In this document: positions 1,563 to 22,788 of the stretch, in pieces | Layout of the letters: each line of letters begins with the position of its first letter | Numbering within the stretch: the stretch's first letter is position 1 | NCBI GenBank assembly: GCA_027488935.1 | Contig: JAIYAP010000088.1 | Span: forward strand, 1 to 37,418 | Source: Saprospiraceae bacterium | GTDB taxonomy: Bacteria; Bacteroidota; Bacteroidia; Chitinophagales; Saprospiraceae | Direction of reading: 5' to 3' | Length of the DNA stretch: 37,418 nucleotides | Position numbers and translations under genes: made by a program | The notes under the pieces: generated by a model | Told to the model about the DNA's origin: nothing | Seen by the model: only the letters and a program-made list of their open reading frames with translations | The model's database searches: none

Positions 1563-2195
1563 CTACTGCTTTCGGCGGGTACAAAGGTAATAATGCCAGA
1601 GCAATCTTGTGCCTACGCTCCGCCAAGGTCGCCAATGTTCGGTAGCCGCTTCAAAATCGGGGTAAGTGGGCCGTTTTTCCAGTCCTTTTAGTACGCGAAA
1701 GGCTTCTTCCATGGCAATATCCCCTTTGGGAAGGATATCAGGCCGCATTAAACATTCTGACAAATAAATGTCAGCCGTCCAGTCGCCAATTCCTTTGAGT
1801 TTTTTCATTTCAATTTTAATCGCTTCATCGGGCAAGTGGGCGAGTTGCTCGGGTTGAAATTGGCCATTTAGTATGGCTTGTGCAAGGAGTTGGGTATAGT
1901 GGATTTTTTGCCGACTAAAACCGATTTCCCGTAACTGGGGATCAGGAAGTGTGAGAAAAGTAGTGGGCGTAATATTTTCGTCCAATATTTGCCGAAGGCG
2001 GAAAAAGGCTGCATTGGCGGACGCCAGGGATACCTGTTGCTCGAGAATAATATGCACCAGGGTAGAAAATCCGGGTTCACGCGCCCACAAAGGCGGATAC
2101 CCGTGTTGTGCGTACACAAAAGCCAAAGCCGCATCCTTTTCTGCCAAGAAATGGGTGGCGGTACGCAGGTTAGTTTCGTTAAGAATTGTTATCAT
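1563..2195 (-). CDS. DNA-3-methyladenine glycosylase-like protein (HhH-GPD, AlkA type)
   Basis: A 210-residue helix-hairpin-helix DNA glycosylase that would start base excision repair by removing alkylated purines. The HhH motif LKGIGDWTADIYL is at about residues 133-145, and Asp159 (KGDIAM) is in the expected place for the catalytic aspartate. LVHIILEQQVSLASA (46-60) and the C-terminal WRPWRSVGTRLLWHYYL are typical of the AlkA/MAG branch. It lacks the N-terminal AlkA domain, as is common for compact bacterial homologues. A possible -7 box (TAAATTTG, minus strand, 2219-2226) lies just upstream. The family call is firm. Substrate range is inferred. Confidence 0.88.
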   Translation of the reverse strand: MITILNETNLRTATHFLAEKDAALAFVYAQHGYPPLWAREPGFSTLVHIILEQQVSLASANAAFFRLRQILDENITPTTFLTLPDPQLREIGFSRQKIHYTQLLAQAILNGQFQPEQLAHLPDEAIKIEMKKLKGIGDWTADIYLSECLMRPDILPKGDIAMEEAFRVLKGLEKRPTYPDFEAATEHWRPWRSVGTRLLWHYYLCTRRKQ

Positions 2196-2218
2196 TGTCG
2201 GTCAGAAAACAAAAATGG

Positions 2219-2226
2219 CAAATTTA
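2219..2226 (-). promoter_or_regulatory. Candidate -7 box for the glycosylase gene
   Basis: TAAATTTG on the minus strand fits TAnnTTTG and lies 24 nt before the ATG at 2195. No convincing -33 element is seen. Confidence 0.3.
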
Positions 2227-2290
2227 GGTTTTGCTATGCAGGAAGAATGATAAAAACTAGCGCAAAAACCTTTAATTTTATAATAAAACT

Positions 2291-21653: not shown

Positions 21654-22561
21654 CGTGTGGTGTTTAGCGTGTTTTTAGTATTTAAATGGTGGGTTTCCGG
21701 CATTTTGCCCGCTTCATACACCCCTAACACCTGAAGTTGTTGGGTGGTAGCGTCGAGCAATTGCAGCGTAGCGGGAATATGGGCAGGATTCGGATGGATA
21801 AAATCGATAAAAAACTGGTATTCCCAGGCTTTTCCGAGTTTGGGGGCCGATTGAATTTTGGTCAGGTTGGCGCCTTCTGCGGCCAGCATGGTTAAAATAC
21901 GGCTCAAACTGCCGCTTTGATGTGGAATGCCAAACTGGAGCGATACTTTATTTGCGCCGGACAAGGGCTGGGCATCTGTTGCCGGTTTGAGCACTAAAAA
22001 TCGGGTAAAATTGACGGGATCATCTTCAATACCCGGGACTAAAACGGCCAGCCCATACAGCTCTGCCGCTAAAGTACTTGCAATGGCCGCCCGATTGCGC
22101 AGGCCGTTTTTGGCAATTTCGGCGGCACTCATTGCTGTATCTTCTGATTCGACCAATTGAATTTCCGGAAACTGTTTCAAAAACAACTTGCATTGCGCCA
22201 GGGCCATCGGGTGGGAGTGCACCGATGCCAGGTCTTGTAGCGAGACACCCGGCAAGGCCAATAAATTTTGACGAATGGGGAGCAATACTTCCCCAACAAT
22301 GCGCAGTTGACTGCGTTGCAACAGGCTGTAATTGGGCAAGATAGAACCTGCTATGCTGTTTTCAATGGCCATCACCGCAGCGTCGGCATGGGCGGGCAAA
22401 CAAGCCAATTGCACGAGTTCTTCAAACGTTGTGGCAGGCACTAAGGTCGTATTTAAGCCAAAAAATTGCCGGGCCGCAACCGCGTGAAAGGCGCCAGGCA
22501 CGCCCTGAATCACTACCCGAGGGCTATTTTGTTTCGGTAAATCAAAATTCGTTGTGTTCAT
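21650..22561 (-). CDS. pheA: Prephenate dehydratase with ACT domain
   Basis: A 303-residue monofunctional prephenate dehydratase (prephenate to phenylpyruvate). Catalytic domain landmarks are QGVPGAFHAVAARQFFG, AVMAIENSIAGSILPNYSLL, SVHSHPMALAQCKLFL and FTRFLVL with the conserved Thr-Arg-Phe. The ACT domain follows (SLQFGIPHQSGSLSRILTMLAAEGANLTKIQSAPKLGKAWEYQFFIDF). The Phe-binding ESRP motif seen in many homologues reads QSAP here. The ATG at 22561 is chosen: the frame runs on upstream to a GTG at 22648, but that stretch passes straight through the terminator hairpin. It is the first structural gene of the operon and its stop overlaps the aminotransferase start. Confidence 0.94.
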   Translation of the reverse strand: MNTTNFDLPKQNSPRVVIQGVPGAFHAVAARQFFGLNTTLVPATTFEELVQLACLPAHADAAVMAIENSIAGSILPNYSLLQRSQLRIVGEVLLPIRQNLLALPGVSLQDLASVHSHPMALAQCKLFLKQFPEIQLVESEDTAMSAAEIAKNGLRNRAAIASTLAAELYGLAVLVPGIEDDPVNFTRFLVLKPATDAQPLSGANKVSLQFGIPHQSGSLSRILTMLAAEGANLTKIQSAPKLGKAWEYQFFIDFIHPNPAHIPATLQLLDATTQQLQVLGVYEAGKMPETHHLNTKNTLNTTR

Positions 22562-22582: not shown

Positions 22583-22619
22583 AAAAAAGGAGCCCCTGAC
22601 GTGCAGGAACTCCTTTTTT
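22583..22619 (-). terminator. Attenuator terminator in the pheA leader
   Basis: On the minus strand, AAAAAAGGAGTTCCTG (22619-22604) pairs with CAGGGGCTCCTTTTTT (22598-22583) around the 5-nt loop CACGT. The result is an uninterrupted 16-bp stem with two U-G pairs, whose 3' arm ends in six U. It lies 21 nt before the pheA start codon and 25 nt after the leader-peptide stop. A terminator there only makes sense as a conditional one. Confidence 0.85.
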
Positions 22620-22654
22620 GTGTAAAATAAGTGCTTTTTTATCTTCACTTACAC
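22620..22654 (-). promoter_or_regulatory. Leader hairpin spanning the leader-peptide stop codon
   Basis: GTGTAA (22654-22649) pairs with TTACAC (22625-22620) and the inner GTG (22648-22646) pairs with CAC (22633-22631), leaving a bulge and an A-rich loop. A ribosome finishing the leader peptide (stop at 22647-22645) would sit on the 5' arm and melt this hairpin. That is the behaviour expected of a pause or protector hairpin in an attenuator. Confidence 0.55.
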
Positions 22655-22734
22655 CCAAAGGCTATTCCCGACCCTTTTCTAAAATAGAAAAAGTATCCAA
22701 AATAACCAAAGTAATAAGTGCAGTTCGAATTCAT
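22645..22734 (-). CDS. Phe/Tyr-rich leader peptide of the aromatic operon
   Basis: A 29-codon frame, ATG at 22734 to TGA at 22645. The peptide contains the run TYYFGYFGYFFYF at residues 6-18, so 10 of those 13 residues are Tyr or Phe. In total there are five Tyr codons (three TAT, two TAC) and six Phe codons (five TTT, one TTC) in 29. It ends KGSGIAFGCK. The frame begins 24 nt after a candidate promoter and ends just before a hairpin and a strong U-tailed terminator, followed by pheA. This matches the layout of pheA/trp-type attenuation: stalling on Phe or Tyr codons when charged tRNA is scarce should favour read-through. No such leader is known to me for this group. The peptide itself probably has no other function. 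Confidence 0.85.
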   Translation of the reverse strand: MNSNCTYYFGYFGYFFYFRKGSGIAFGCK

Positions 22735-22757
22735 TGTACTGTTGTACTGTTACGCTG

Positions 22758-22788
22758 CAAATGTGTAGGGTTTGTTTTTAAAAAACAA
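22758..22788 (-). promoter_or_regulatory. Candidate promoter of the aromatic amino acid operon
   Basis: On the minus strand, TTG (22788-22786) and CACATTTG (22765-22758) are separated by 20 nt, the spacing of Bacteroidota -33/-7 promoters. The -7 box differs from TAnnTTTG at its first base. Transcription would start about 10-15 nt before the leader-peptide ATG, giving a very short 5' end. Confidence 0.5.

Follow-up and report, generated by a model that had tools for sequence, protein, structure and literature searches.

A short leader before pheA in the window, the whole 37,418-nt stretch of Saprospiraceae DNA that we analysed, is very probably a ribosome-mediated attenuator. Judged from sequence comparison, it would sense the charging of tRNA-Phe and tRNA-Tyr and thereby control an operon of pheA, an aminotransferase, tyrA and a DAHP synthase/chorismate mutase. 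Attenuation of this Phe/Tyr operon had been proposed in a first-pass annotation of the same DNA, and our analysis supports it: the codon run, the terminator and the antiterminator are conserved, and so is, within the genus, the protector hairpin. What we observe is the parts of the element (Table 1), their conservation, and region 2 and terminator changing in step from family to family.

Table 1. Features of the leader and of the operon that follows it.
Feature	Position	Strand	Basis
Putative promoter: TTG (22788-22786) and -7-like CACATTTG (22765-22758)	22788-22758	minus	read from sequence
5' leader element CAGTACAACAGTACA, repeated motif between -7 box and leader ATG	22749-22735	minus	genus-conserved
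Leader peptide ORF, 29 codons including stop, MNSNCTYYFGYFGYFFYFRKGSGIAFGCK	22734-22645	minus	read from sequence; kind present in 22 same-genus loci
Regulatory Phe/Tyr run, codons 7-18	22716-22681	minus	read from sequence, same-genus comparison
Predicted protector hairpin P1 (region 1 with region 2), -19.7 kcal/mol	22707-22660	minus	7 of 13 pairs changed on both sides, 21 leaders
Region 2 (CGGGAATAGCC): 3' arm of P1 and 5' arm of the antiterminator	22670-22660	minus	pairing comparison
Hairpin over the stop codon, between regions 2 and 3	22654-22620	minus	predicted
Region 3 (GGAGTTCCTG): core of the terminator 5' arm, antiterminator partner of region 2	22613-22604	minus	pairing comparison
Intrinsic terminator (3:4), 16 pairs, U tail, -20.7 kcal/mol	22619-22583	minus	folding and genus comparison
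pheA, prephenate dehydratase (ATG at 22561)	22561-21650	minus	NCBIfam NF008866/NF008865, under curated cut-offs
PLP aminotransferase (LL-DAP aminotransferase-like)	21653-20481	minus	NCBIfam, under cut-off
tyrA, prephenate dehydrogenase	20484-19642	minus	NF006307, exceeds cut-off
DAHP synthase/chorismate mutase fusion	19578-18427	minus	NF009239 and chorismate mutase models, under cut-offs

Leader frame, promoter and operon in the window

The leader peptide holds Phe or Tyr at 10 of the 13 positions from residue 6 to residue 18, and the frame is the Tyr/Phe-rich one of 29 codons that the first-pass annotation had read. That annotation had also placed a promoter upstream of it. The 20-nt spacing between TTG and CACATTTG stands; CACATTTG itself differs from TAnnTTTG at one base, and the promoter is putative. 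A TAnnTTTG box lies at the corresponding place in 9 of 13 genus leaders, the window's own leader being among those that do not have it. Among the four operon genes, tyrA alone exceeds its NCBIfam cut-off.

The element CAGTACAACAGTACA is a possible operator or 5' UTR element. It occurs at one exact place in its own genome; allowing three mismatches adds one more place, and a reversed control also gives one, so that no regulon for CAGTACAACAGTACA was seen in this own-genome search, either exact or with three mismatches. A doubled RTAC pattern is found in 11 of 13 genus leaders versus 3 of 130 others. Across the 143 unique leaders of the wider set described below, 45 have a TAnnTTTG box that ends at most 10 nt before the leader ATG, mostly 7 nt (for example L050, L076 and L096), which suggests near-leaderless leader mRNAs.

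Alternative folds and the modelled ribosome

The U-tailed 16-bp stem before pheA, noted at first pass, is present as a terminator with a T-rich tail. Covariance folding of aligned leaders, which the first-pass annotation had proposed, supports P1 and the terminator. In 21 genus leaders, whose alignment was fitted to the P1 plus terminator structure, 97.2% of cells were paired and 11 of 26 pairs showed two-sided changes; none of 500 shuffles attained either value, and 5 of 500 did so for one weaker measure. A Gly codon within the Phe/Tyr run supplies G residues that pair in P1 (alignment columns 13-14 with 64-65), and this may be why the Tyr/Phe pattern is interrupted. Support for the predicted protector hairpin is confined to the genus. 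The hairpin across the stop codon, also claimed earlier, is found in the window and was predicted in 21 of 21 genus leaders by a loose criterion; genus-wide its advantage over shuffled linkers is modest (mean z -1.2), and it probably has a supporting role only.

As a competing fold, the strand CTTTTT-C-TATT had been suggested to pair with 22643-22634. Covariation favours another fold, and the suggested pairing was rejected: the strand pairs instead with TAGAAAAGGG in P1. The predicted competing fold is region 2 with the 5' arm of the terminator. Among genus leaders this antiterminator has 89.0% of cells paired, versus 29.5-65.7% for slid versions, and each of the 13 same-genus leaders has a GG of region 2 at a distance of 14-16 nt, counted from the first base of the run's last codon; four of them also have an earlier GG. 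Two-sided changes in the antiterminator amounted to 0 pairs inside the genus versus 1-3 in slid versions, and variation was on one side only, because region 3 barely varies. The shuffle control for antiterminator covariation inside the genus was without discriminating power.

Following this zero count we used a swap test between loci. The leader set consists of 143 unique entries, one of which has too short a region 2 and was left out of the swap test (n=142). L173 (score 6), probably a false entry, is counted in the tallies of 143 and 142 leaders and was left out of the alternation and dissimilar-terminator tests. Region 2 and the terminator arm differ together between families: they read GGAAC/GUUCC in the window's genus, GCCGGGAC/GUCCCGGC in family f18 and AGGAUU/AAUCCU in one genus of family f20. 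The native pairing of region 2 with the terminator arm averaged -15.9 kcal/mol, compared with -10.5 kcal/mol when swapped and -7.3 kcal/mol when region 2 was shuffled (n=142), and it beat the swap mean of its locus in 137 of 142 cases. Only 45% of loci had their native pairing in the top 5% of swaps, since the same terminator recurs in many loci. A control zone upstream of the ATG gave -5.1 kcal/mol, weaker than native in 140 of 141. In 20 draws of 13-18 mutually dissimilar terminators, native pairing averaged -14.8 kcal/mol versus -8.3 kcal/mol for swapped pairing; 0 of 2,000 permutations reached native in each of the 20 draws, with native the best of its row in only 6-12 of 13-18. Complementarity between regions 2 and 3 thus appears to be kept between families of differing sequence. 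As in the attenuator class, the predicted antiterminator would exclude the terminator by taking its 5' arm, with matched change between families and none that is two-sided in the genus.

The antiterminator together with the stop-codon hairpin (22670-22604) is predicted at -19.6 kcal/mol, which puts it near balance with P1 and the terminator (Table 1). We modelled the switch by folding only the RNA ahead of the ribosome, whose edge was assumed to lie 14 nt past the first A-site base. With the modelled ribosome at the last run codon, antiterminator probability was 0.97-1.00 in 12 of 12 distinct genus loci; one codon past the run it was 0.07-0.66, within about three codons it was near zero, and at the stop it was 0.00. 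Without a ribosome the distinct genus loci gave 0.00-0.08, except L007 at 0.50. Likewise, in the wider set the folding model forms the antiterminator over the run in 140 of 142 leaders. Using the 14-nt edge, 75 leaders have the boundary at the last run codon or the one after it, 64 have it later, 2 earlier and 1 nowhere, and edges of 11-15 nt move it by about one codon. The antiterminator persists in 13 of 142 leaders of this set when the ribosome is at the stop, and is below 0.5 without a ribosome in only 38 of 142: the protector (1:2) hairpin of the attenuator class is found in the genus and is not general class-wide (38/142). In the complete RNA at equilibrium, terminator probability was 0.99-1.00 in all states tested; therefore the switch must act kinetically, by the order of folding.

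We infer that the leader is translated, that ribosomes stall on it and that it responds to each of the two amino acids. A ribosome would trail RNA polymerase through the leader frame. When Phe or Tyr is short, it would stall in the run and open P1, and the freed region 2 would pair with region 3 once this is made, the stop-codon hairpin being folded between them. The antiterminator so formed would block the terminator, and the operon would be transcribed. When both amino acids are plentiful, the ribosome would continue and cover region 2, leading to formation of the terminator. In the genus the terminator would form without a ribosome too, P1 then holding region 2.

Occurrence in the genus, the class and the phylum

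We searched 40 genomes for pheA, the window's own included (25 same-genus and 15 more distant), and obtained a match in 16, namely 13 of the 25 and 3 of the 15. All 13 same-genus pheA loci carry a leader of 29-33 codons, followed by a U-tailed terminator; the first 20 residues of each leader include 8-12 F/Y, always with F as well as Y. No Phe/Tyr leader was seen upstream of pheA in the 3 more distant genomes by the upstream-stretch scan. A covariance model built from 12 genus leaders and run with strict filters on 42 genus genomes matched 23 of them, and 22 were kept; the match in G431 (E 3.1e-4) was discarded, there being no leader ORF. All 13 genomes with pheA matched the model, and 11 of the 12 same-genus genomes with no match to pheA also have no leader. 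The genome G021 (L220) has no pheA match and carries the leader directly before aminotransferase-tyrA-DAHP synthase; the element therefore belongs to the operon and not to pheA alone. Several of the 12 same-genus genomes (of 25) in which pheA went unmatched are more than 95% complete, which may mean that Phe synthesis was lost repeatedly or that their pheA has diverged.

What would speak against an attenuator, according to the first-pass annotation, is homologous operons from which the run or the terminator is missing. This check did not refute it: the run is kept in 13 of 13 same-genus loci and, before pheA, in 77 of 80 named loci, the latter being the best 80 of at least 595 pheA loci (L018-L021 and L039 are already in the genus set). 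Leader and script-found terminator occur together in 75 of the 80. Three named loci are without a leader, L062 (177 nt upstream only), L078 and L088, and two have a leader with no terminator found, L034 and L060. Organisms with the leader include Phaeodactylibacter, Chitinophaga, Hymenobacter, Sediminibacterium and Marinifilum. The gene order pheA, aminotransferase, tyrA is seen in 74 of the 80 named loci; of the other six, three have pheA and aminotransferase and three pheA only.

A sample of the phylum yielded pheA in 337 of 392 genomes, and we inspected the upstream stretches in 88 of these 337, chosen non-randomly by score and genus. The leader is present in 55 of the 57 same-class-or-closer genomes among the 88 (L152 being without a terminator found), and in only 5 of the 31 genomes from other classes, 26 of which miss it. 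In the two same-class misses pheA lies behind other same-strand ORFs, aroA-like by eye. Ten of ten further same-class genomes with a divergent pheA showed no leader before pheA within 1.5 kb. In one of these ten, L199 (~2094-2230, reverse complement), a Phe/Tyr leader and terminator stand instead before a gene resembling DAHP synthase, with a short pheA-like ORF lying upstream of them.

Scanning 169 regions, we found 16 loci with two F/Y leaders, each with its own terminator. Fifteen were examined (L023, L026, L027, L030, L031, L033, L049, L053, L063, L064, L066, L072, L085, L086, L099; upstream of pheA); L121 was left out, as its first terminator overlaps the ORF oddly. The tandem lineages are Chitinophaga, Hymenobacter, Phaeodactylibacter and Saprospiraceae MAGs, and no second module was seen in the upstream stretches of the loci of the window's genus. 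The first peptide ends 1-5 codons past the run, and the second is longer-tailed except in L030. Pairing averaged -14.7 kcal/mol within modules versus -9.3 kcal/mol across modules; in L023 and L030 one cross-module pairing rivals the native one.

Read jointly, these data make it fairly probable that in much of Bacteroidia an attenuator reads Phe and Tyr (and in 46 of 143 leaders a Trp codon too) in one interleaved run, setting DAHP synthase and the entire Phe/Tyr branch jointly. The RNA sequence of this attenuator would have been replaced repeatedly with the complementarity of region 2 and terminator kept, several lineages would have two largely independent modules in series, likely acting as a cooperative gate, and many leaders (45 of 143 near TAnnTTTG) may be translated near-leaderless.

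Alternative explanations and known systems

Phe and Tyr codons are common in A+T-rich DNA, and chance could set a frame rich in them beside an unrelated terminator. However, when ATG frames of 10-45 aa were scored in 5,000 dinucleotide shuffles of a 241-nt stretch, none had 9 or more F/Y in 13 residues (0/5,000), the shuffle maximum being 8 versus the 10 observed. We also scanned ATG frames of 10-45 aa on both strands of 686,090 bases, made up of the window and the 80 named loci. Frames with at least 8/13 F/Y/W and a terminator comprised 66 pheA leaders and 9 second leaders before the same pheA, and 0 lay away from pheA in the bases scanned; at 6 or 7/13 there were 25 other frames with a terminator, some of them also second leaders. 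Conservation of the leader across same-genus and named loci refutes a chance origin, to which we assign practically no weight. The leader ORF might instead be translated as a coupling device with control lying elsewhere, the terminator being constitutive or working with Rho or a protein. The genus-specific repeated element between promoter and ORF could then be an operator, and the terminator is thermodynamically dominant; but the 5' element is not found class-wide, and region 2 tracks the terminator across families, for which there would be no reason unless the two compete. We regard control elsewhere as very improbable and retain ribosome-mediated attenuation.

As to what the attenuator would sense, 141 of the 143 unique leaders with a terminator hold both Phe and Tyr, two (Marinifilum) hold Phe only, and 46 also hold Trp. 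Phe/Tyr transitions number 497 versus 418.9 (sd 13.0) in shuffled strings, with 0 of 2,000 shuffles reaching the observed value, in a statistic over 109 distinct strings that ignores relatedness. Together with an operon serving both branches, these codons favour dual sensing. An attenuator responding to Phe only, in which Tyr codons are a U-rich filler aiding the pairing of region 1 with region 2, would fit with the E. coli pheA leader, which uses Phe codons, with the excess of Phe over Tyr (means of 5.2 versus 3.4 per 13-residue window), with the two Marinifilum leaders that are without Tyr, and with the pairing of region 1 and region 2 in the window's genus. In contrast, Tyr is found in 141 of 143 leaders, among them those of families in which region 2 is G+C-rich and needs no U-rich partner, Phe and Tyr alternate beyond the shuffled expectation, and 74 of 80 named loci have tyrA after pheA. 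We consider Phe-only sensing unlikely, and dual sensing of Phe and Tyr is the reading that we keep.

The E. coli pheA attenuator consists of a short ORF with Phe codons, alternative hairpins and a terminator before pheA. The leader described here is alike in each of these points; unlike the E. coli leader (RF01859), it has Tyr codons too, tyrA and DAHP synthase would also be under its control, and its putative promoter is of the Bacteroidota type. Searched at a relaxed threshold with Rfam RF01859 (Phe_leader), it scored 16.2 bits against a cut-off of 55 (E 2.5) and is not a member of that family, and at gathering score Rfam gave 0 matches, to a T-box or any other leader, in the window and in 13 related loci. 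Leaders of E. coli ilvGMEDA and thr hold codons for more than one amino acid. The leader here is similar in that it combines codons for several amino acids made by its operon, whereas those of ilvGMEDA and thr concern branched-chain amino acids or threonine/isoleucine and this one Phe and Tyr. Both E. coli operons are named as attenuated in the accessible text of PMC1183508. Tandem attenuators are described for Salmonella mgtCBR in the accessible text of PMC3641672; the relatives with two modules likewise have two leader ORFs in series, but theirs are two similar Phe/Tyr modules, each with its own terminator.

Within the phylum, the accessible part of Guerin et al. 2021 (PMC9723704) reports clues to leader-peptide attenuation before amino-acid operons of F. 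psychrophilum, as well as a structured, transcribed pheA 5' element that is conserved in other Flavobacteriaceae genera and has no Rfam hits. That element shares phylum and gene with ours; for it, this part of the paper describes no codons, Tyr, antiterminator or distribution beyond Flavobacteriaceae. In B. thetaiotaomicron, sORFs reminiscent of leader peptides are reported in the accessible part of Ryan et al. 2020 (PMC7366714). The first-pass annotation had called a dual Tyr/Phe leader in Bacteroidota undescribed. This holds for the mainly open literature covered, where we found neither a Phe/Tyr leader nor its antiterminator nor tandem modules described for Bacteroidota; it is tempered by the pheA 5' element and the leader-peptide clues already present in F. 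psychrophilum. The kind of control is probably already known from these Flavobacterium features, and the Phe/Tyr attenuator would be a variant of it.

Across a large part of Bacteroidota, attenuation appears to be a common way of controlling the aromatic branch, a single codon run serving to read two amino acids. The system offers a testable dual sensor, and the natural replacements of terminator and antiterminator would show RNA switches keeping their function through sequence turnover. The tandem modules are material for testing cooperativity. If the attenuator works as proposed, transcription and translation would be tightly coupled in a phylum that is reported, in the accessible text of PMC3155529, to be generally without Shine-Dalgarno sequences.

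Other amino-acid loci of the window's genome were viewed for similar frames. At its trpE-like loci, frames held at most 3 Trp in 12. Upstream of hisG (L232, ~2163-2228, minus strand), a 21-codon frame, MLNLFSVVLHHHHGLPPGKRC, contains four consecutive His and begins a few bases after a TATCTTTG box, and a strong U-tailed hairpin stands before hisG. The frame and hairpin are likely a His attenuator.
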